From an uncultured Oscillospiraceae bacterium (GTDB taxonomy: Bacteria > Bacillota > Clostridia > Oscillospirales > Oscillospiraceae), in NCBI GenBank assembly GCA_944387015.1, contig CALXDH010000001.1, positions 1-64,000 of the forward strand: DNA of 64,000 nucleotides, in the 5' to 3' direction. Below the pieces are notes generated by a model. That model was not told where the DNA came from and did no database searches. It was given only the letters and a program-made list of their open reading frames with translations. Shown here piece after piece: positions 52,138 through 64,000 of the stretch. The position numbers and the translations under genes are program-made. Position 1 is the stretch's first letter, and every line of letters begins with the position of its first letter.

Positions 52138-52172
52138 TCAAAAAAGCCACCCCGACCGGGGTGGCTTTTTTT
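52138..52172. terminator. Bidirectional terminator between GH18 and xerC
   Basis: AAAAAGCCACCCC, loop GACC, GGGGTGGCTTTTT: a perfect 13-bp stem with T tails both ways. Confidence 0.93.
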
Positions 52173-53184
52173 AGCTCTCGTTTTTCTTTTTTCGTTTGAT
52201 ATGTGACAAGGGATTTGCCTTTGCAGCTGTTCGCAGCGCGTCGTTATCGATGTGGGTGTAGATCTCGGTAGTGTTGAGATGGTCGTGGCCCAGCACCTCC
52301 TGGACCGCCTTGACGTCCACGCCGTTTTGCAGCATCAGCGTGGCGGCGGTGTGGCGCAGCTTGTGAGAGGAGTACTGGGTGCTGTCCAGTCCGGCCTCCC
52401 GCAGCCGCTTTTTCACCATGGCGTGGACCGTGGAGCGGCTGATCCGCTCGTTCTGGGAGGACAAAAACAGCGCGTTTTCATCCCGGCCCCGGATGGGCCG
52501 CCGCACCGCCAGATACCGCTGCAAAGCATCCTGACAGGTCTCATTCAAATAAACGATGCGCACCTTGTTGCCTTTGCCCAGAATTCGCAGGGCGTCGTCC
52601 TGAATGTCGTTGAGGTTCAGCCCAACCAGCTCGGAAATCCGCAGCCCGCAGTTTAGGAACAGCGCCAAAATACAGTAGTCCCGATCTTGATTCTTACCGT
52701 CCACAGACTCCAGCAGATGCAGACTCTCATCCAGCGTCAGATATTTGGGCAGCGTTTTCTTCAGCTTGGGAGAATCCATATCTTTGACAGGATTTTCACG
52801 AAGTAAATGCATCTTGTTGGTGAGGTAATTATAAAAGGAGCGGATCGTAGCGATCTTGCGGGCTCGTGAGGCCGCGTTGAGGCCGTAGTCGGGATTGCGG
52901 CTGTTTTGGTTGCGGACCCGGTCACGGCTGAGATAGGCCATGTAGCCGTAGATGTCCGTCAGGGTGACGCTGGCCACAAAATTCAGATCGACGTCCCGAA
53001 TGTCGATCTCATCCAGCGCAAGACCGGCAAGCGACGGGTCCCGGGTCTGCTTGAGATAGCGGAAAAAATTTCTCAGGTCCAGGAAATATTCGTCCACTGT
53101 GCGCTTGGAGTGGGCTTTGATCGTCTCATGGTACGCCAGAAAATCACGTAAAATCTGTGGAGCTTCCGTACGATAATCAGCCAT
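52171..53184 (-). CDS. xerC: Tyrosine recombinase XerC type
   Basis: 337 residues: an N-terminal SAM-like DNA-binding domain and a C-terminal catalytic domain with NCGLRISEL (first Arg), HKLRHTAATL (His, Arg), LGHDHLNTTEIYTHI (His, Tyr). Xer recombinases resolve chromosome dimers at dif. Length exceeds the usual 300, with a 10-30-residue insert. A dif-like inverted repeat lies 70 bp upstream of the start (53254-53283). It lies 3' of radA on the same strand, but with a 400-bp gap. Confidence 0.9.
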   Translation of the reverse strand: MADYRTEAPQILRDFLAYHETIKAHSKRTVDEYFLDLRNFFRYLKQTRDPSLAGLALDEIDIRDVDLNFVASVTLTDIYGYMAYLSRDRVRNQNSRNPDYGLNAASRARKIATIRSFYNYLTNKMHLLRENPVKDMDSPKLKKTLPKYLTLDESLHLLESVDGKNQDRDYCILALFLNCGLRISELVGLNLNDIQDDALRILGKGNKVRIVYLNETCQDALQRYLAVRRPIRGRDENALFLSSQNERISRSTVHAMVKKRLREAGLDSTQYSSHKLRHTAATLMLQNGVDVKAVQEVLGHDHLNTTEIYTHIDNDALRTAAKANPLSHIKRKKKNES

Positions 53185-53484
53185 AGGTCATCCATCTGCA
53201 GGAACCGCCAAAACCGCCTGAAAACGGCTTTTCCCGGGGGAGCCTCTCCTCCGAATTGAACAAAATTTTTATTTTGTTCAATTTTATGTGTCCCGCAAAA
53301 TCCTCCTTCCTCTCTTCCCGATTCGGCCTGCCGGCAGTTTATCGGCAGGTACGCGGCATGCGCCGCTTGTTTGTAATCATCGTCCCGCGGCGCGGTGTCT
53401 GCCGGCCGTGGGACTTGTCCTGATAAAAACGGCCATTTCAGGCCATGCTAGATGTAAATCTCTTTGCAGAAACGGATGGTGCTT
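53185..53484. other. 300-bp gap with dif-like inverted repeat
   Basis: Between xerC (minus) and a small plus-strand gene. It holds the 30-bp inverted repeat at 53254-53283 and a weak AAAACCG/CGGCTTTT hairpin near 53213-53233. No convincing sigma-A promoter for xerC was found. Nothing else is recognised. Confidence 0.6.
53254..53283. repeat. AT-rich inverted repeat, element 1 (dif-like architecture)
   Basis: AATTGAACAAAA, 6-base centre TTTTTA, TTTTGTTCAATT: a perfect 12-bp inverted repeat. The same architecture recurs at 63831-63860. Each inner 11-bp arm agrees with the E. coli XerD arm TTATGTTAAAT at 9 of 11. Function unknown; xerC starts 70 bp away. Confidence 0.7.
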
Positions 53485-53718
53485 ATGAGTTTGATTCCCT
53501 GTACCAGTGCCTGCGTTTATCAGCAGGACGGCCTCTGCACCCTGGACAGCGCCGCTGCAGCAGGAACGCCCTCTCTGGGCGGTGCCTGCGTCCACTTCAT
53601 TCCCGCCGCTGGAGAGCGGCTCGGATCGCCTCACCGATATTGCGGGCCGGGATCAGCCGCAGACCTTCCGGGGCCTTCAGCGTATCCGCCCGATGGGCCG
53701 GGACCACACACTGCTTAA
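53485..53718 (+). CDS. Small Cys-rich protein, 3' end over radA
   Basis: 77 residues: MSLIPCTSACVYQQDGLC then an Ala/Gly stretch and GGACVHFIPAAG. The four Cys (C-x3-C-x7-C-x15-C) and YQQDG recall short Cys-rich proteins seen in other clostridial genomes, function unknown. The last 40 residues overlap the 3' end of radA on the other strand and look unlike the start, so the natural stop may be read through or lost. The ribosome site is weak. Confidence 0.45.
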   Translation: MSLIPCTSACVYQQDGLCTLDSAAAAGTPSLGGACVHFIPAAGERLGSPHRYCGPGSAADLPGPSAYPPDGPGPHTA

Positions 53719-54982
53719 AGCCCAGCCGATGCACCTCGGAGATACGCTGAGACAGCTGGTTCACCGACCGCAGTTCTCCTGTCAGACCTACCTCGCCGAT
53801 GGCCACCAGGTCTCCGGGCACCGACGCGTCCAGATAGCTGGACGCCAGGGCGATCACCGCCGCCAGGTCTGCGGCGGGCTCGTCCAATGAGAGGCCGCCG
53901 ATGATATTCAGATAGGCGTCGCAGGCAGAGACCCGCAGCCCTCCCCGCTTTTCCAGCACCGCCAGCAGCATGGCCGCTCGGTTGTAGTCAAAGCCGTTGC
54001 TGGTGCGCCGGGGATTGCCCCCGGCAGAGGTCACCACCAGGGCCTGGATCTCCGCCAGCACCGGCCGCACGCCCTCCATCACGCAGGTGACGCAGGTGCC
54101 CGGCGCGTCATCCGGGCGGCCGGAGAGCAGCATCTCCGAGGGATTCTCTACCTCCGCCAGGCCCTGGTCCTGCATCTCAAAGACGCCGATCTCATTGGTA
54201 GCGCCGAAGCGGTTTTTTGCTGCCCGCAGGATGCGGTATGTGGTGTGCTGGTCCCCCTCGAAGTACAGCACGCAGTCCACCATGTGCTCCAGCACCTTGG
54301 GACCGGCGATGGAGCCCTCTTTGTTGACGTGGCCGATAACGAACACCGTGATCCCCTGCCCCTTGGCCAGCTGCATCAGCGCCATGGTGCAGTCCTTCAC
54401 CTGGCTGATGCTGCCCGCGGGAGAATCCAGAGCGTCGTTGTAGAGCGTCTGGATGGAGTCCACGATCAAAATGTCCGGCTGCTCCGCTGCCACAGACTCC
54501 ATCAGATCCCCCAGACAGGTCTCTGAGATCACATAAAGGTTGCTGTTCTCTACGCGTAATCGTTTTGCGCGCAATTTCAGCTGGTGCTCAGACTCCTCCC
54601 CGGATACATACAGTACCTTGGACGTTTCGCAAAGCTTGCTGCAGATCTGCAGCATCAGCGTGGACTTGCCGATGCCGGGGGCACCGCCCACCAGCACCAG
54701 CGAGCCCTTCACGGCGCCGCCGCCCAGCACCCGGTCCAGCTCCCCCATTCCCGTGGGAAAGCGGATCTCCTCTGCGGTCTGCAGATCCGTTACCGGGCAG
54801 GCCCGGCGAACGCCCTGAGCTGCCCGGACTGCCGCCTTGCCGGAGGTCTTTCCCCCAGCGGTACGGACTGGCTCCGGCTGTTCCACTACGGTGTTCCAGG
54901 CGCCGCACGCCGGGCACCGCCCCGCCCACTTGGGCGTCTCATTGCCGCAGGCGGTACAGTAAAACATGGTCTTTGCTTTCAT
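53597..54982 (-). CDS. radA: DNA repair protein RadA
   Basis: A branch-migration ATPase helping homologous recombination. 461 residues. N-terminal zinc finger (CTACGNETPKWAGRCPAC), Walker A GGAPGIGKST, the RadA motif KNRFGATNE, and a C-terminal Lon-like domain. GAAGGAGCAAC precedes the ATG at 54982. Its start overlaps the cwlD stop by 4 bp. Confidence 0.96.
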   Translation of the reverse strand: MKAKTMFYCTACGNETPKWAGRCPACGAWNTVVEQPEPVRTAGGKTSGKAAVRAAQGVRRACPVTDLQTAEEIRFPTGMGELDRVLGGGAVKGSLVLVGGAPGIGKSTLMLQICSKLCETSKVLYVSGEESEHQLKLRAKRLRVENSNLYVISETCLGDLMESVAAEQPDILIVDSIQTLYNDALDSPAGSISQVKDCTMALMQLAKGQGITVFVIGHVNKEGSIAGPKVLEHMVDCVLYFEGDQHTTYRILRAAKNRFGATNEIGVFEMQDQGLAEVENPSEMLLSGRPDDAPGTCVTCVMEGVRPVLAEIQALVVTSAGGNPRRTSNGFDYNRAAMLLAVLEKRGGLRVSACDAYLNIIGGLSLDEPAADLAAVIALASSYLDASVPGDLVAIGEVGLTGELRSVNQLSQRISEVHRLGFKQCVVPAHRADTLKAPEGLRLIPARNIGEAIRAALQRRE

Positions 54983-55707
54983 GTTGCTCCTTCTTCACTG
55001 CCCCACCGCAGATACCCTGTGGTGATGGCCGCCGCCAGCAAACGCTGGTGGGGCGGCTCCTCCAGCCGAGCAGTCTCTGCCTGGTTGGATAAAAAGCCAC
55101 ACTCCACGATCACGCCGGGGGCCGTTGCATTCTTTAAAAGGTAAATGGTGTCCGCGATCTCCTTGGCCTCTTTGGGCCGCTCGGGATTGATGCATTGGTT
55201 CAGCGCCTCCTGCATCTCCCCCGCCAGATCTTGGGCACCGGGCTGCTCATTCCAGAACACCTGGGCACCATGGGTCGACGGAGACGAGGGCAGGCTGTTT
55301 TGATGGATGCTGACCAGCACGGCGTTTTCCGTGCCGTTCACCAGCGCCACCCGGTTTTTCAGATCCGAGACCTTTCGCTGCCGGATAGTGCCACCCTCAG
55401 TGTAGGTGGACACGTCCTCACTGCGGGTCATCACCGTCTCCACTCCGGAAAAAGTCATCAGGTCCCGGACCCGCAGGGCAATCTCCAGATTCAGCCCGCT
55501 CTCCGTCACCGCGCCATCACCGGAGACAGCGCCGCCATCCTCCCCACCGTGGCCTGGGTCCAGTACCACGATCTTCCCGGACGTCTGTGTCTGGGGCGCG
55601 AACACCTGGGCAACTCCGCCGTGGCCCTCCACAAGTACTGCCCCAATCAGTGCCACACAAAGCACTGCTGCCGCTGCGATGTGGCGTTTTCGTATGATGA
55701 AGATCAT
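54979..55707 (-). CDS. cwlD: Muramoyl-L-alanine amidase CwlD
   Basis: Needed to make muramic-delta-lactam in spore cortex. 242 residues. One N-terminal membrane helix (about 7-26), then Amidase_3 with zinc ligands H53, E69 and H135 and catalytic E202 (DPGHGGEDGG, SIHQNSL, ECGFLSNQAE). The Met at 55707 follows GGGGGG; more codons upstream are open but not conserved. The upstream sequence has a good sigma-E promoter and a sigma-A one. It overlaps radA. Confidence 0.93.
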   Translation of the reverse strand: MIFIIRKRHIAAAAVLCVALIGAVLVEGHGGVAQVFAPQTQTSGKIVVLDPGHGGEDGGAVSGDGAVTESGLNLEIALRVRDLMTFSGVETVMTRSEDVSTYTEGGTIRQRKVSDLKNRVALVNGTENAVLVSIHQNSLPSSPSTHGAQVFWNEQPGAQDLAGEMQEALNQCINPERPKEAKEIADTIYLLKNATAPGVIVECGFLSNQAETARLEEPPHQRLLAAAITTGYLRWGSEEGAT

Positions 55708-55727
55708 CCCGCATCCCCCCTGCCAGG

Positions 55728-55757
55728 AGGGTATGCCCCACCGCTTATCCCATATTC
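55728..55757 (-). promoter_or_regulatory. Sigma-E type promoter of cwlD
   Basis: On the minus strand GAATATG (55757-55751, 6 of 7), 15-bp spacer, CATACCCT (55735-55728, 7 of 8), ending 21 bp before the start codon. In Bacillus cwlD is a sigma-E gene. Confidence 0.6.
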
Positions 55758-55768
55758 CCGATGTTTTG

Positions 55769-55797
55769 ATTATACTGTCTTCCCCTCTGAAAAGCAA
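55769..55797 (-). promoter_or_regulatory. Sigma-A promoter upstream of cwlD-radA
   Basis: On the minus strand TTGCTT (55797-55792), 17-bp spacer, TATAAT (55774-55769). It would keep radA expressed in growing cells. Confidence 0.65.
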
Positions 55798-55824
55798 GGT
55801 CAGGCTCCTCTTTCCCTCCTGCGG

Positions 55825-55832
55825 CATACACT
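55825..55832 (+). promoter_or_regulatory. Sigma-E/K -10 of cotJ
   Basis: CATACACT matches the late-sporulation -10 consensus fully, 64 bp before the start; no good -35 was found. Confidence 0.35.
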
Positions 55833-55895
55833 GGACTGAGCGTCGCGGCCCTGCGGACTGCGATGCCATCCCTTTCAAAGGAGGATTCCACTCAG

Positions 55896-56378
55896 ATGGA
55901 AAACAATCCTGAAACCAATAAGCCCTCCGCGCCTCCTGCAGCCCCCAATGGCTGCGGCGCCGGTCAAGGATCTCTCCCCGGCCGCTGCGGTGCGCTGGCG
56001 TTTCCCTTTGTAGCCATGCAGGAAAACAACCCCGTCCGCTTCAGTCGGATGGAGGCACTCCAGACCGGAACACTGTTTCCTGGCCTGGACCTGCCTTTCA
56101 AGGCCGCCATTCAGGCCAAGACGCAGCTGAAAAACACCGCCCTAGTGGAGCTGATGGCCCTGGACTTTGCCATCGATGAACTGGGGCTCTATCTTGTCAC
56201 CCATTCCCAGGATCAGGAGGCTTTGCAGCTGTACTGGTCCTACATCAAGCTGGCCCAGGAGGGCCGGCAAAAATACCAGGAGCTCTATGGTCCTCTGCTT
56301 CAGACGGATCTGACCCCCGAGGACGGATACGCCTGGCTGAAAGATCCGTGGCCCTGGGATGAGGGAGGGAATGCCTGA
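55896..56378 (+). CDS. CotJA-CotJB fused spore coat protein
   Basis: 160 residues. The first half is CotJA-like: FPFVAMQENNPVRFSRMEAL then GTLFPGLDLPF. The second half is CotJB-like: LVELMALDFAIDELGLYLVTH through a region ending YGPL. In Bacillus these are two genes, cotJA and cotJB, before cotJC; here they are one frame with no internal stop. AAAGGAGG (55877-55884) is 11 bp before ATG 55896. The stop overlaps cotJC. Confidence 0.85.
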   Translation: MENNPETNKPSAPPAAPNGCGAGQGSLPGRCGALAFPFVAMQENNPVRFSRMEALQTGTLFPGLDLPFKAAIQAKTQLKNTALVELMALDFAIDELGLYLVTHSQDQEALQLYWSYIKLAQEGRQKYQELYGPLLQTDLTPEDGYAWLKDPWPWDEGGNA

Positions 56379-56974
56379 TGTTTGTCTATGAAAAAAAGCT
56401 CCAGTACCCGGTGAAAATCAAAAATATCAATCCCAAGCTGGCCTCCATTATCATCTCCCAGTACGGCGGGCCGGACGGCGAGCTGGGAGCTTCCCTGCGC
56501 TATCTGAGCCAGCGGTACTCCATGCCCTACCCGGAGCTCAAGGCTCTGCTGACGGACATCGGCACTGAGGAGCTTGGGCACCTGGAAATGATCGGCACCA
56601 TCGTTCATCAGCTGACCCGAAACCTCAATGAAGATCAGATCCGCGCCGGCGGCTTTGAGCCCTACTTTGTGGATCACACCACTGGCGTGTACCCCACCGC
56701 CGCCTCCGGCTCCCCCTGGAACGCCGCCGGCATGGCGGTAAAGGGCGATCTGATCGCAGACCTCACCGAGGACCTCGCTGCAGAGCAGAAGGCCCGGGTT
56801 ACCTACGACAACATCCTGCGTCTTTCTGACGACCCGGATGTCAACGACGCCATCAAGTTCCTCCGGGCACGGGAAATCGTCCACTTCCAGCGCTTCGGCG
56901 AGGGACTGCGGCTTGCCAAGGACCGCATGAACGAGAAAAACGTCTATCTGGTCAACCCCTCCTTCGACCAGTGA
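56378..56974 (+). CDS. cotJC: CotJC, manganese-catalase-like coat protein
   Basis: 198 residues, ferritin-like four-helix fold. Metal-binding candidates are in TDIGTEELGHLEMIGT and the E-x2-H of REIVHFQRFGEGL; DLTEDLAAEQKARVTYDNI is another helix. The ATG overlaps the previous TGA. CotJC is found in the spore coat. A terminator follows. Confidence 0.93.
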   Translation: MFVYEKKLQYPVKIKNINPKLASIIISQYGGPDGELGASLRYLSQRYSMPYPELKALLTDIGTEELGHLEMIGTIVHQLTRNLNEDQIRAGGFEPYFVDHTTGVYPTAASGSPWNAAGMAVKGDLIADLTEDLAAEQKARVTYDNILRLSDDPDVNDAIKFLRAREIVHFQRFGEGLRLAKDRMNEKNVYLVNPSFDQ

Positions 56975-56997
56975 CAGCCTTCCCTTCAAGACAACAA

Positions 56998-57034
56998 CCC
57001 CCGCCGCCGGATAATTCCGGCGGCGGGGGCTTAT
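56998..57034 (+). terminator. Intrinsic terminator after cotJ operon
   Basis: CCCCCGCCGCCGG and CCGGCGGCGGGGG form a perfect 13-bp stem with loop ATAATT, then CTTATT. Confidence 0.88.
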
Positions 57035-57058
57035 TGATGATTCAGGATGTTCGGGTCT

Positions 57059-57316
57059 TCAGCCGGCCTGAGCGGCATCGCTGCTCATCAGGTCCGCCAC
57101 CAGGTTCATCAGCCGGGCACGGTCTTCACGCCGGTCGGCGAACAGTTCCAGATCATCACCCTGCTCCTCGATGAGCTGGCCCACCGCGATATAGCGGGAG
57201 AGAGAAGACTTCAAATTGAAAATGTCTCCCTCTGGGCTTTGCAGGTACACACCGCCCTCACAGGATTCCACAACTTTCAAAAACTCCTGGACATCTGCTT
57301 CGGAACGCAGTCTCAT
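57059..57316 (-). CDS. Small HPr-like protein, 85 residues
   Basis: The C-terminal part FNLKSSLSRYIAVGQLIE is like the NLKSIMGVMSLG segment of HPr; the His of HPr is absent, so it is probably not a phosphocarrier. It starts MRLRSEADVQEFLKVVE. Single gene, with a weak promoter at 57372-57401. Function unknown. I recall similar short proteins in other clostridia. Confidence 0.6.
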   Translation of the reverse strand: MRLRSEADVQEFLKVVESCEGGVYLQSPEGDIFNLKSSLSRYIAVGQLIEEQGDDLELFADRREDRARLMNLVADLMSSDAAQAG

Positions 57317-57371
57317 TGGAAAGACATCCTTTCTTTCTAGATTTGCGGTCGGGGCTCCCGACTGCGTCTAT

Positions 57372-57401
57372 AAAATATCACGAGACAACGCTGGCTGTCT
57401 A
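57372..57401 (-). promoter_or_regulatory. Possible promoter of the HPr-like gene
   Basis: On the minus strand TAGACA (57401-57396), 18-bp spacer, TATTTT (57377-57372) with TGA before it. Confidence 0.45.
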
Positions 57402-57580
57402 TGGAAGATATGGATAAGGTTTCCCGCTTCACCGGCGTTCTTTTTTTGCAACCCGCACAAAAACAAGCAACTTTTTTTCTATTTTGTAACATATGTAATC
57501 GTTTTGCTTTTTAATAAATGCAATTTTTAAGGTAATATCCTTCTTTTTTGGACGGCAGGCTGCTCAGAGGCTCCGGCATA

Positions 57581-57612
57581 GAAAATCCCGGAGGGCGATG
57601 AGCCCTCCGGGG
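57581..57612 (-). terminator. Intrinsic terminator after YczE-like gene
   Basis: CCCGGAGGGC and GCCCTCCGGG (57587-57596, 57602-57611) form a perfect stem; on the minus strand ATTTTC follows. Confidence 0.8.
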
Positions 57613-57644
57613 AAATGCAGATTCGTTGCTCGCCTTTTGGTACC

Positions 57645-58304
57645 TTACAAAACCGCTCTCTCCAGCGTCTTCATCAGCGGCTGGAACCTTTTGGTGATCT
57701 GGCCCACCAAAAGGGCGGCCGCCACTGTGCCTTCCCGGACACCGTCCAGCTGGCCCAAAAACGATAGCGACAGCACGATGGAGATGCACACCAGTGTGAT
57801 GTCAAAGGCCATCTTCATATTGCCGAACTTTACCGGCACCACCTTGCAGATGGCCAGCACGATCCCCTCGCCCGCCGTGGTGACCAGATTGGCCATGACT
57901 TCCACACTGACCCCAAGAGCAATGAAGAAAATACCTGCGGCACACAGCAGCCACTGCTGAGCATAGTTCCCGGCGGGAAGGGGCGCAAGCACCGCCTCCG
58001 CCACGTCGATCATCACGCCGAACAAAACGGCGGCTGGAAACTGCAGCAGTTGGAACCACTCGTATTGACGGCGCAAAATGGCGATCTGGATCAGTACAAA
58101 AAGGAAGTTCATGATGATGGTAGTGGTGCCTACGGACAGCCCAGAGATCCGCGCTGTCACATAGGGGACGCTGGAAATTGGCGAGGTCCCCAGCGCCGCT
58201 TTGATGGAAAACGCCACACCAAATGCCATGATGATGAGACCCGCACTCAAAAACGCCAGCCGTCGCGCCGGATGGGACCACCGTTTCCCTAAAGATTGCG
58301 TCAT
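57645..58304 (-). CDS. YczE/DUF6198 family membrane protein
   Basis: 219 residues, about five or six hydrophobic helices: LAFLSAGLIIMAFGVAF, FLFVLIQIAIL, LLCAAGIFFIALGV and VCISIVLSLSF. The text FSIKAALGTSPISSVP is a family feature. The role is unknown. It overlaps the MarR gene by 4 bp, so it is probably controlled by it, and might be an exporter or part of a stress response (inference). Confidence 0.82.
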   Translation of the reverse strand: MTQSLGKRWSHPARRLAFLSAGLIIMAFGVAFSIKAALGTSPISSVPYVTARISGLSVGTTTIIMNFLFVLIQIAILRRQYEWFQLLQFPAAVLFGVMIDVAEAVLAPLPAGNYAQQWLLCAAGIFFIALGVSVEVMANLVTTAGEGIVLAICKVVPVKFGNMKMAFDITLVCISIVLSLSFLGQLDGVREGTVAAALLVGQITKRFQPLMKTLERAVL

Positions 58305-58741
58305 GTCTTGTTCTTCTTCCCTTCATTTTGTGATTCCATTGCTGTACACAACTTGTCCAGCAACTCCCGCAGCCGCGCCTCTTCTTCGTCGCTCAACTCC
58401 GCAGAGGCGATCGTTTCCGCATCGTGAAAGACGCCCGTCATGCGGTTCGCCGCCTCCAGGCCCTTCTCCGTCAAAGAGACATAGAGAGAGCGCCGGTTCC
58501 CCGCCTTCTGCCGCCGGAGGATCAGTCCGCCCTCCTCCATCCGCAGCAGGATGCTGCCCACTGTGGCCGGCTCGATCTCGCAGTAAGCCGCGATGGTCTT
58601 TTGATCGCTCTCCCCGTGGTGGAGCAAAAACTCCAGCACCTTGGGCTGGCCAGGCGTCAGGCCCAGCTTACCCGCCTCTGACAAAATCCTGCGGGAAAGC
58701 ATCGCATTGGACTTCATCAGCAGATAGTGAAGACTCTCCAT
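58301..58741 (-). CDS. MarR family regulator
   Basis: 146 residues with the winged-helix core: LGLTPGQPKVLEFLLHHGE, then the recognition part IEPATVGSILLRMEEGGLI and wing RRQKAGNRRSLYVSLTEKG. The start has a GGCGG ribosome site. An AT-rich partial palindrome upstream (58751-58775) overlaps a TATAAT on the minus strand and is the likely self-operator. Cotranscribed with the YczE-like gene. Confidence 0.9.
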   Translation of the reverse strand: MESLHYLLMKSNAMLSRRILSEAGKLGLTPGQPKVLEFLLHHGESDQKTIAAYCEIEPATVGSILLRMEEGGLILRRQKAGNRRSLYVSLTEKGLEAANRMTGVFHDAETIASAELSDEEEARLRELLDKLCTAMESQNEGKKNKT

Positions 58742-58750
58742 AAAACCGCC

Positions 58751-58775
58751 TTAATAATAAGGATCATTATAATAA
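58751..58775. promoter_or_regulatory. Possible MarR operator and -10 region
   Basis: TTAATAATAAGG and CATTATAATAA form an imperfect AT-rich palindrome that contains TATAAT on the minus strand, 10 bp before the regulator gene; no good -35 was found. Confidence 0.4.
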
Positions 58776-58929
58776 CAAAGCTTATCATATTCCCTTTTTT
58801 CCAAATGTCAAGGCCTTCCCCCGCCGCTGCGGCGCAAAAAGCGGCAGGCCCGCGTCCCCGAAGAGAGGCAGACCTGCCGGAAACGATATTGAGATCTGAA
58901 ACGGGGCGCAGCGGTTCAGGGACCATCCC

Positions 58930-61675
<2,746 letters not shown>

Positions 61676-61731
61676 GGGCCTCCCCCCTTTCCCGCCATCT
61701 TATGCGGGAACAGGTTGACCTCATGAACGGC

Positions 61732-63108
61732 TCACGGCAGGGCGTTGACAATCTCTTTAAACACCCGGCCCCGCTCCATGAAGTTTGCAAAGCGGTCAAA
61801 GGAAGTGCTGGCCGGTGAGAGGATCACCACGTCTCCTTCCACGGCGCGGCTGTCGGCGATAGAGACGGCATCCTGATAGTCTGCCACGTCGATGATCTCC
61901 AGGCCGGCGTAATTCTCCGCCTGCTCCACCGCCTGCCGGATCACGCCGGCAGTAGCGCCGCACAGCAGCAACAGCTTCACATGCTCGTTCACCACTGGGC
62001 CCAGCGGCGCATAGGAGATGCCCTTGTCCTTGCCTCCGGCGATGAGGATGACCTTTTCCGGGAAGGAGTTGAGCCCCGCAATGGTGCGGCTGGGGCTGGA
62101 GGCGATGGAGTCGTTGTACCAGCGGACGCCCCGGCGGGTGCGGATCAGCTCGATCCGGTGCTCCACGCCGCCGAAGGTCCGGGCGAAGTCCCGGATGATG
62201 TCGTCGGGCACCAGGCCATCCACTGTGGCGATGGCGGCCAGGTAGTTTTCAATGTTGTGGACCCCCGGCAGTTTAATGTCCCCGGTGTCCATCACCGTCC
62301 GCTCCTGCCCGTTGCTGCGGGCGATCACCGCCGTGCCCCGGAGGAACACGCCGTCGTCCACCTCCCGCTTCCGGGAGAACAGCCGCACCCGGCCCGGCGC
62401 CTTGGCAGAGAGGGCAAGCGTCTCGTCGTTGTCCGCGTTGAAGACGGCAATATCCTGTGCCGTCTGATGTGTAAAGATATTTGCCTTTGCAGAAATATAC
62501 TCTGCATAGTCCTTGTGGACATCCAGGTGGTTGGGTGAGAGATTGGTCATCACGGCAATATGGGGGCTCTGGGTCATGGTCATGAGCTGGAAGGAGCTCA
62601 GCTCCAGCACCGCCACGTCCTCCGGGGCGATGGTACCCGCCTCCGCCAGCAGCGGATGGCCGATATTGCCTCCCAGGTGTACCGTCCGCCCAGCCCGCTT
62701 CAAAAGCTCGGCGATGATGGTGGTGGTGGTGGTCTTGCCGTCGCTTCCCGTAACAGCAATCATCGGGCAGGGACACACCTGGAAAAATACCTCCATCTCA
62801 GAGGTCAGCTTGCTGCCTCCGGCCACGGCCGCCGTCAGGCCAGGAAGGTCCGGCCGCATCCCAGGGGTACGGAAGATCAGGTCCTGGCTCAGTCCCTCCA
62901 GATACCCCTCGCCCAGGTGCAACCGGCAGCCCTTGGTCTCCAGCTCCCCGGCGATGTCCCCCAGAGCCTCCCGGTCCTTCTTGTCGCATGCGGTGACGTC
63001 CACCCCCCGCTCCAGCAGCAGCTGGATCAGCGGGCGGTTGGAGACGCCGATGCCCATCACGGCCACCGTCTTGTCCCGCAGGGAATTCAGATACTCCTCG
63101 AACTTCAT
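61732..63108 (-). CDS. murD: UDP-N-acetylmuramoylalanine--D-glutamate ligase
   Basis: Adds D-Glu to the peptidoglycan precursor. 458 residues. P-loop TGSDGKTTTTT (120-130), with the N-terminal VMGIGVSNRPLIQLLL and C-terminal AGGKDKGISY. Met 63108 follows ATAAGGAGCG. It is not in a dcw cluster here. Divergent from rnpB. Confidence 0.96.
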   Translation of the reverse strand: MKFEEYLNSLRDKTVAVMGIGVSNRPLIQLLLERGVDVTACDKKDREALGDIAGELETKGCRLHLGEGYLEGLSQDLIFRTPGMRPDLPGLTAAVAGGSKLTSEMEVFFQVCPCPMIAVTGSDGKTTTTTIIAELLKRAGRTVHLGGNIGHPLLAEAGTIAPEDVAVLELSSFQLMTMTQSPHIAVMTNLSPNHLDVHKDYAEYISAKANIFTHQTAQDIAVFNADNDETLALSAKAPGRVRLFSRKREVDDGVFLRGTAVIARSNGQERTVMDTGDIKLPGVHNIENYLAAIATVDGLVPDDIIRDFARTFGGVEHRIELIRTRRGVRWYNDSIASSPSRTIAGLNSFPEKVILIAGGKDKGISYAPLGPVVNEHVKLLLLCGATAGVIRQAVEQAENYAGLEIIDVADYQDAVSIADSRAVEGDVVILSPASTSFDRFANFMERGRVFKEIVNALP

Positions 63109-63213
63109 GGAATCGCTCCTTATCGGCTCCGCCTTCCGGCGGGAATTTTGCATACGTTGAAATTATACCGCAAGCGGCGGGAAATTACAACGCGGCGGGC
63201 CAATTTTCCGCCG

Positions 63214-63242
63214 TTGACATTTCCCCCGCCTTCCTGTACAAT
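63214..63242 (+). promoter_or_regulatory. Consensus sigma-A promoter of rnpB
   Basis: TTGACA (63214-63219), 17-bp spacer, TACAAT (63237-63242). Confidence 0.9.
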
Positions 63243-63252
63243 AAATAGGCAT

Positions 63253-63599
63253 GAGTAAAACAGACAGTCGCGTGGGCAGGCCGAAAGGCCGTCCATGAGG
63301 AAAGTCCGGGCTCCACAGGGCAAGGATAACGGGTAACGCCCGCCGAAGGCGACTTCAGGAAAAGTGCAACAGAGAGATACCGCCGTCAGGGCTTGCTCTG
63401 GCGGTAAGGGTGGAAAGGTGCGGTAAGAGCGCACCCGACGGCTGGAGACTGTCCGTCGATGTAAACTCTATCCGGAGCAACACCGTGGTGGAAGCACATG
63501 GCTGGCCCGGCCGCTTCCGGGAGGTGGCTTGAGCGTACCGGCAACGGTACGTCGAGATAGATGACTGTCAAATACAGAACCCGGCTTACAGTTTTGCTC
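63253..63599 (+). ncRNA. rnpB: RNase P RNA, type A
   Basis: About 347 nt. The catalytic core GAGGAAAGTCCGGGCTCC is at 63297-63314 and its 3' partner ACAGAACCCGGCTTA at 63574-63588. Terminal helix P1 is GAGTAAAAC (63253-63261) with GTTTTGCTC (63591-63599). The GATAACGGGTAACGCCCG segment is the usual P-helix region. RNase P RNA cuts tRNA 5' leaders with the RnpA protein. Consensus promoter upstream; terminator 63615-63646. Confidence 0.97.
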
Positions 63600-63614
63600 G
63601 TGCCAAGACATGGT

Positions 63615-63646
63615 CCCGGCTGCGTGATCCGCAGCCGGGGCTTTTT
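63615..63646 (+). terminator. Intrinsic terminator after rnpB
   Basis: CCCGGCTGCG (63615-63624), loop TGATC, CGCAGCCGGG (63630-63639), then GCTTTTT. Confidence 0.94.
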
Positions 63647-63739
63647 CTAATCTGTTCCGGGGCGTACGACATCCCCCCGCCGTAGATCACACAGCATCCG
63701 CCCTCTGCCGGATGCACGTCCACTTGCAACTTCCGCAGA

Positions 63740-63768
63740 ATTTTATAAAATTTGCCCGTTGATGTCAA
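63740..63768 (-). promoter_or_regulatory. Possible minus-strand promoter antisense to rnpB
   Basis: On the minus strand TTGACA (63768-63763), 17-bp spacer, TAAAAT (63745-63740). The -10 lies in AATTTTATAAAATT, a perfect palindrome (63739-63752). No gene seen downstream; it points towards the 3' end of rnpB. Confidence 0.45.
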
Positions 63769-63825
63769 TGTTAGTGTCATTGCCGCAGGTCCTTCCCAAC
63801 CCGGTCCTGTATGACGTCGCCCGGA

Positions 63826-63865
63826 ATCATAATTCAACAAAACCAAACTTTTGTTGAATTATGAT
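63826..63865. repeat. AT-rich inverted repeat, element 2 (dif-like architecture)
   Basis: A perfect 17-bp inverted repeat, ATCATAATTCAACAAAA and its complement, around CCAAAC. The core 63831-63860 has the same 12-6-12 layout as the element at 53254-53283; the arms differ only by G to C, with the matching C to G on the other side. Confidence 0.72.
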
Positions 63866-63881
63866 AATGAACAAAGTCAAA

Positions 63882-63910
63882 CAAAAAGCGGAGACGGTTT
63901 CCCGTCTCCG
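63882..63910 (-). terminator. Intrinsic terminator of the yebC-type gene
   Basis: CGGAGACGG (63889-63897), loop TTTC, CCGTCTCCG (63902-63910); on the minus strand CTTTTTGTTT follows. Confidence 0.88.
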
Positions 63911-63932: not shown

Positions 63933-64000
63933 TCAGTCGTTGTCCCAGTTGTGCCAGACGTTCTGGACGTCGTCGCTGTCCTCCAGCATATCGATGAGCT
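63933..64000 (-). CDS. YebC/PmpR family protein, C-terminal end only
   Basis: The minus strand reads LIDMLEDSDDVQNVWHNWDND and stops at TGA (63935-63933). The LIDMLED-x-DDVQ-x-V block is the C-terminus of YebC-type proteins, which rescue ribosomes stalled at proline runs or act as regulators. The rest lies to the right of the window. Confidence 0.85.
   Translation of the reverse strand, partial: LIDMLEDSDDVQNVWHNWDND

Follow-up and report, generated by a model that had tools for sequence, protein, structure and literature searches.

The window considered here, 64,000 nucleotides long, opens a 191-kb contig (C1) in the 2.42-Mb, 72-contig draft genome of an uncultured member of the Oscillospiraceae, a family of common gut bacteria. 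At 53254..53283 (no strand assigned) it carries a palindrome with an 11-6-11 core at 53255-53282 and the centre TTTTTA on the + strand. This palindrome starts 69 bp before the ATG of a gene for a divergent Xer tyrosine recombinase of 337 aa (52171..53184, - strand; Pfam Phage_integrase, 1.2e-39), and on its far side from xer lies radA (53597..54982, - strand; TIGR00416, 593.7 bits). We propose that the palindrome is the dif site of this lineage and that the adjacent Xer is most likely its recombinase, a reading to which we assign a probability of about 0.83. Because of its position at the terminus, its usual xer neighbour and the insertion of small viruses at it, the site most likely serves to separate fused chromosomes.

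The initial annotation of the window had described two palindromes, at 53254-53283 and 63831-63860, and both have exactly the coordinates, arms and centres given there. The first indeed lies close upstream of an Xer-type gene, as had been noted. The inner arms had been likened to TTATGTTAAAT, which we take to be the XerD arm of Escherichia coli; compared by eye with this arm, each agrees at 9 of 11 positions. With up to 3 mismatches allowed, the window held no match other than these two, and 100 dinucleotide shuffles of the window gave 0 matches. The first site has the layout expected of a dif, which is intergenic and about 28-31 bp long, with inverted arms of some 11 bp on either side of a 6-8 bp centre. 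A high copy number without linkage to xerC or to the terminus had been named as evidence against a recombination site; when this was checked, the source genome held three matches in total. The T-N4-A class, that of the first palindrome, occurs once, and the two related sites belong to other classes; the third copy, at C20:7299-7328, is imperfect.

Conservation and terminus position of the site

The palindrome was matched, at up to 3 mismatches, in 55 of 99 relatives: 46 of 61 genomes of the genus (source included) and 9 of 38 of the order. An xer homologue was present in 26 of the 30 loci returned with the palindrome from relatives, and the exact core was found in nine of 12 family genomes with xer. 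Named genomes were scanned with both arms free to be G or C independently, and at least 117 loci were obtained; the locus counts given from here on are among the matches listed. These loci come mostly from Oscillospiraceae, Oscillibacter, Clostridia and similar, with a few others, e.g. Thermotoga and Runella. In 114 of these 117 the two arms complement each other, which agrees with the earlier description of the G/C exchange between arms as compensatory, and the centre is TAAAAA/TTTTTA in 83.

Linkage to xer is common. The gene lies within 1 kb of the site in 79 of the 117 loci, at a median distance of 101 bp (range 31-861), and its start faces the site in all 79, with the centre oriented variably towards it (48 TAAAAA, 14 TTTTTA, others fewer). 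There is no xer within 1 kb in 22 loci, two of which have it at no more than 1.7 kb, and the remaining 16 end too near an edge for xer proximity to be decided. Fourteen genomes picked for the lack of a nearby xer each gave a single match at up to 1 mismatch; 13 of them encode an xer homologue elsewhere, with 48-64% identity.

The site lies at the replication terminus. Measured from dnaA, it is found in five single-contig family genomes at 0.478, 0.517, 0.533, 0.551 and 0.566 of the circumference (the position in G256 being corrected for where its dnaA lies); in a sixth, G038, it is at 3.55 Mb of the contig, with dnaA not located there. In G302 and G256 the sign change of GC skew adjoins the 10-kb bin containing the site, and in G225 it falls within about 20 kb of the site. 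Maxima of cumulative skew, which are those of the fetched stretches and not of whole chromosomes, are 15 kb (G176), 31 kb (G195), 14 kb (source C1) and 5 kb (G045) from the site. Across these seven, which are the five single-contig genomes, the source C1 and G045, the switch ranges from the bin of the site itself to about 31 kb off.

A local test was applied to the 65 of 117 loci with at least 1.5 kb on either side. Skew was positive on the left and negative on the right in 41 of these, and higher on the left than on the right in 60. The corresponding figures were 10.4% and 50.1% for random control points (n=4,000; taken from seven other genomes or contigs, no closer than about 46 kb to the site), and 11.0% and 45.4% for intergenic control gaps (n=291). 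Gene orientation was rejected as the source of the flip, sites being above the intergenic controls in every orientation class: 20/41 vs 9.7% between genes of the same direction, 15/16 vs 15.9% between convergent genes and 6/7 vs 9.5% between divergent genes (unclassed, 0/1). The site, rather than the xer gene, marks the terminus, because the flip stays with the site where xer is apart. Sixteen of the 22 loci without xer within 1 kb still flip at the site. In G491 the flip falls in the interval 153-158 kb, which includes the site (155,691) and excludes xer (141,932), and in G493 it falls in the interval 27-34 kb, which includes the site (31,628) and excludes xer (76,889). Location at the terminus and its GC-skew switch is again what characterizes a dif.

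Elements inserted at the site

In twelve empty relatives, the source included, the xer-side flanks are alike and so are the radA-side flanks. These host flanks are split at the palindrome by an inserted element in G045, G024 and G013. The radA side holds the second junction in occupied relatives, which carry a second, hybrid site besides the host one. In G045 the element is a gokushovirus-like prophage of 5.2 kb (L266:1455-6697), whose six open reading frames (ORFs) encode G2P-like replication, M15 peptidase, Phage_F capsid, pilot-like, Phage_ORF5 and Chp2-type scaffold proteins; no integrase is among the six. The host centre TTTTTA is retained at the xer-side junction, and the radA-side junction has a different centre, also ending in TA. 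A related prophage was observed in the IMG/VR contig L170, which was found by the pattern and has its Phage_F capsid gene between two such sites.

The elements of G024 and G013, of 2.8-3.0 kb, each code for a Phage_integrase protein (193 or 178 aa) besides a G2P-like replication protein. Similar integrases occur in elements of G014, L064, L083 and L144. The insertion in G014 is less clear because the flank repeats on both sides, and the junction is less clear in L064, L083 and L144 because the spacer of their radA-side site has 8 or 10 bases. Elements of 2.7-3 kb, with a G2P-like Rep and an integrase of 173-193 aa, were seen in the radA-xer gap of L268, L270, L272, L064, L083 and L144.

These insertions at the palindrome lend indirect support to its proposed use in dimer-resolving recombination. 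The prophages recall the gokushovirus prophages described at E. coli dif, likewise integrase-less microviruses, in which the upstream site is of the host and constant while the downstream one is of the phage and varies (PMC7062461, excerpt). Host and site are different here, and there are two cases, one of them from IMG/VR. In the part of a 2022 paper drawn on here, microvirus prophages of Gram-positive bacteria were termed new (PMC9239249). Apart from these, an exact palindrome stands beside ParA and ParB in the phage contig L169 (3834-5899), where it is perhaps the dimer-resolution site of a phage-plasmid.

The recombinase and the competing explanations

The Xer at 52171-53184 falls below the curated NCBIfam cut-offs of XerC (TIGR02224, 234 bits against 335), XerD (TIGR02225, 223 against 330), XerS (157 against 267) and XerA. 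No XerH model was among the profile matches of the window Xer, XerH being represented by a distant match in the PDB only (5jjv, 2.7e-18). The residues R182, K207, H274, R277, H300 and Y309, which we take to be the catalytic R-K-H-R-H-Y set of tyrosine recombinases, are at least 98% conserved across 74 aligned sequences. The nearest sequences of solved structure are XerD of E. coli and XerA of an archaeon. In a 30-row tree that included E. coli XerC and XerD and seven XerDs of the family, the divergent Xer forms a separate branch outside them (support 91/91). This placement is only suggestive because of its long branches, and its support is moderate.

It is reasonable to think that a single recombinase is likely to act at the palindrome: the arms are identical, and one enzyme can therefore serve both. 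One Xer monomer would occupy each of the two identical arms, the pair of such sites present on a dimeric chromosome would come together in a synapse, and strand cutting and exchange would take place around the 6-bp centre. Small mobile elements with a look-alike site would insert at the same dif. We infer that Xer binds and catalyses, that no other recombinase takes part and that a translocase exerts control; the single-enzyme action is put no more strongly in view of the canonical XerD gene found 20 kb from here.

The initial annotation had suggested that the palindromes may be dif-like targets of one Xer-type recombinase, or attachment sites for an element that uses it. For the first, a target that also serves as an attachment site is strongly supported at the sequence level, by terminus position and skew flip, few copies per genome, conservation, symmetric arms, xer linkage and insertions at the palindrome; this support holds for the first only. 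Several results weigh against the proposal. Fifteen of the 61 genus genomes have no site at the cut-off used, many of them being incomplete, and the pattern finds none in three of the 12 xer-bearing family genomes (G222, the sample of which was partly masked, G201 and G229). There is no clean +/- flip in 24 of the 65 loci with sufficient flanks. The NCBIfam XerC and XerD scores leave the lineage of the window Xer undecided. Since an integrase is encoded by the Rep elements themselves, the host enzyme is implicated by the microvirus cases alone, and these are few. The Phage_F capsid gene was found in only 3 of 400 family genomes (G045, G385 and G151). The microvirus of G385 is near no such site, G151 has a partial capsid gene in a locus where a relaxed scan found no site, and 0 of 80 capsid relatives in IMG/VR carry the site core. 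The microvirus was thus rejected as general proof. Finally, canonical XerD scores above its cut-off in 7 of 7 genomes examined, so that a two-enzyme reaction is possible.

In such a reaction the divergent Xer would be a diverged form of XerC that works with canonical XerD on the palindromic dif. This is the most serious of the alternatives, and we regard it as possible though rather unlikely. It fits the location of XerD: in six of the seven genomes this gene lies some 9-56 kb away from the site (20 kb in the source), and in G222 it is 86 kb from xer. No third Xer of comparable score was found in the seven. The inner arm TTTTGT also resembles TTATGT of the canonical XerD arm. However, arms that are identical and change together, as in 114 of 117 loci, would be odd for two enzymes reading one arm each, the divergent Xer stands outside E. 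coli XerC and XerD and the family XerDs in the long-branched tree, and XerD-arm-like repeats are located elsewhere, upstream of the xerD region. That the palindrome is an autoregulatory or regulator-binding site of the xer promoter, as had also been considered in the initial annotation, is quite improbable as its sole role. Perfect symmetry is typical of operators and the xer start faces every close site, 31-861 bp off, but the skew switch remains at the site when xer is apart, and we disfavour the operator-only reading because of this. Moreover, elements insert at the palindrome, no sigma-70-type promoter was called around it, and the centre is kept in 83 of 117 loci while its orientation towards xer varies.

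A hot spot for elements, serving as an integrase attachment site and not as a host dif, would account for the several elements located there. Empty sites are conserved too, however, as in the twelve relatives shown, and the terminus position and the one match per genome hold without any element; we consider this explanation marginally less probable still than the operator. A chance or structural repeat such as a transcription terminator can practically be dismissed. AT-rich palindromes can form hairpins, but neither palindrome was called terminator-like, which led us to reject this reading for both, and shuffled windows gave no match, while the site is conserved across genera with compensatory changes.

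A canonical site was also sought. A canonical XerCD dif has unlike arms, with TTATGT in the XerD arm; the arms of the first site are identical and read TTTTGT. The 28-bp Bacillus subtilis dif was used as a query at up to 9 mismatches against the terminus stretches of G176, G195, the source (C1 and C20) and G045. It gave four matches of 8-9 mismatches, two of which are XerD-arm-like direct repeats upstream of the xerD region, and a canonical dif was rejected for the stretches scanned. Such half-sites (TTATGTTAAC, TTATGTAAAC) were observed as direct repeats 14 bp apart at C1:75471-75494 (L250:15471-15494), about 0.8 kb upstream of canonical xerD. Direct 14-bp repeats of TTATGTAAAC-like half-sites occur upstream of the xerD region in the source C1, G045, G176 and G256. 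Similar ones are found in G302 and G195, a single half-site in G225, and a few isolated ones elsewhere in the fetched stretches.

One scenario, which we hold to be doubtful, would combine these features. In this lineage dimer resolution would have passed to the new Xer with its symmetric dif. The old XerD would be retained at the terminus, where the 14-bp direct half-site repeats would mark a role that involves no recombination, for instance SMC unloading. At the second palindrome class the new enzyme would dock without recombining it. That the old XerD might retain just a task of the SMC-unloading type is speculation. B. subtilis XerD is described as additionally unloading SMC at the terminus (PMC12322038, excerpt).

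Related systems and the second palindrome class

The first site appears to work like XerS/difSL, XerH/difH and especially the XerL/dif of Legionella, and by sequence it belongs to none of them. According to the part of the Legionella study drawn on here, that dif is perfectly symmetric, is served by one enzyme, XerL, was found via an inserting element and lies near the skew switch (PMC9765430). The present site shares the symmetric arms, the GC-skew switch nearby, the inserting element and the one divergent Xer. It differs in phylum and enzyme, in its 12-bp arms, in its usual place beside xer and in the canonical XerD gene that is kept, and it is known here from sequence alone.

Excerpts of another paper (PMC5357621) allow comparison with three further systems. 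The genes of XerS and XerH adjoin their sites. XerS/difSL of streptococci and lactococci is thus alike in its single Xer gene adjoining the site, and also belongs to Firmicutes, whereas difSL spans 31 bp, its arms are imperfect and its centre is 11 bp long. In Helicobacter and Campylobacter, XerH/difH likewise combines a single recombinase with a site near its gene, whereas the arms of difH are imperfect, of 11 and 10 bp. The CodV/RipX dif of B. subtilis has the same 11-6-11 layout at the terminus and differs in having two enzymes and two unlike arms. In the survey by Kono, dif was predicted in 97 of 100 Firmicutes organisms, and its main text, as excerpted, is without mention of Oscillibacter (PMC3025954). 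Judging by title and start of abstract, we found no description of an Oscillospiraceae dif among the papers listed in literature searches, which gave at most 20 titles each and mostly did not cover subscription papers.

Where a divergent Xer with its perfectly symmetric dif coexists with a retained canonical XerD, the origin of single-recombinase from two-enzyme systems would become testable. In draft genomes the site would also serve to mark the terminus, and it is a predicted target of integrase-less phages infecting these hosts.

The second palindrome (63831..63860, no strand assigned; centre CCAAAC), which had been described together with the first as having the same layout, is not a further copy of it. 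It is a related but separate class of site, with a centre starting with G or C and not T-N4-A, just beyond yebC or tyrS. In the window, rnpB (RNase P RNA; 63252..63604, + strand; Rfam RF00010, 277.3 bits) and yebC converge around it. The 3' end of yebC is at 63933..64000 (- strand; NF001030, 333 bits), the gene extending past the window to C1:64670, and the palindrome lies past its predicted terminator-like hairpin (63889-63910, - strand). In the regions fetched around secondary matches, the core lies 62-102 bp past the last yebC codon in nine genus genomes (source included; L048 is the same contig as G031), and 323 and 1620 bp beyond yebC in two further genomes. It lies 62-68 bp past the end of tyrS in four (L278, L280, L281 and L282), tyrS being confirmed in three. 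The centre starts with G/C in 13 of 13 yebC/tyrS cases and ends with G/C in 10, and the arms of this class are often just partly symmetric. Our guess is that the second palindrome may be bound by the same Xer enzyme or be an attachment scar. Between rnpB and the yebC-side palindrome, G013 (L273:7156-8613) carries a helix-turn-helix (HTH) gene and a DUF6291 gene with low-complexity repeats; similar HTH/DUF6291 ORFs, absent in the window, occur in other relatives.

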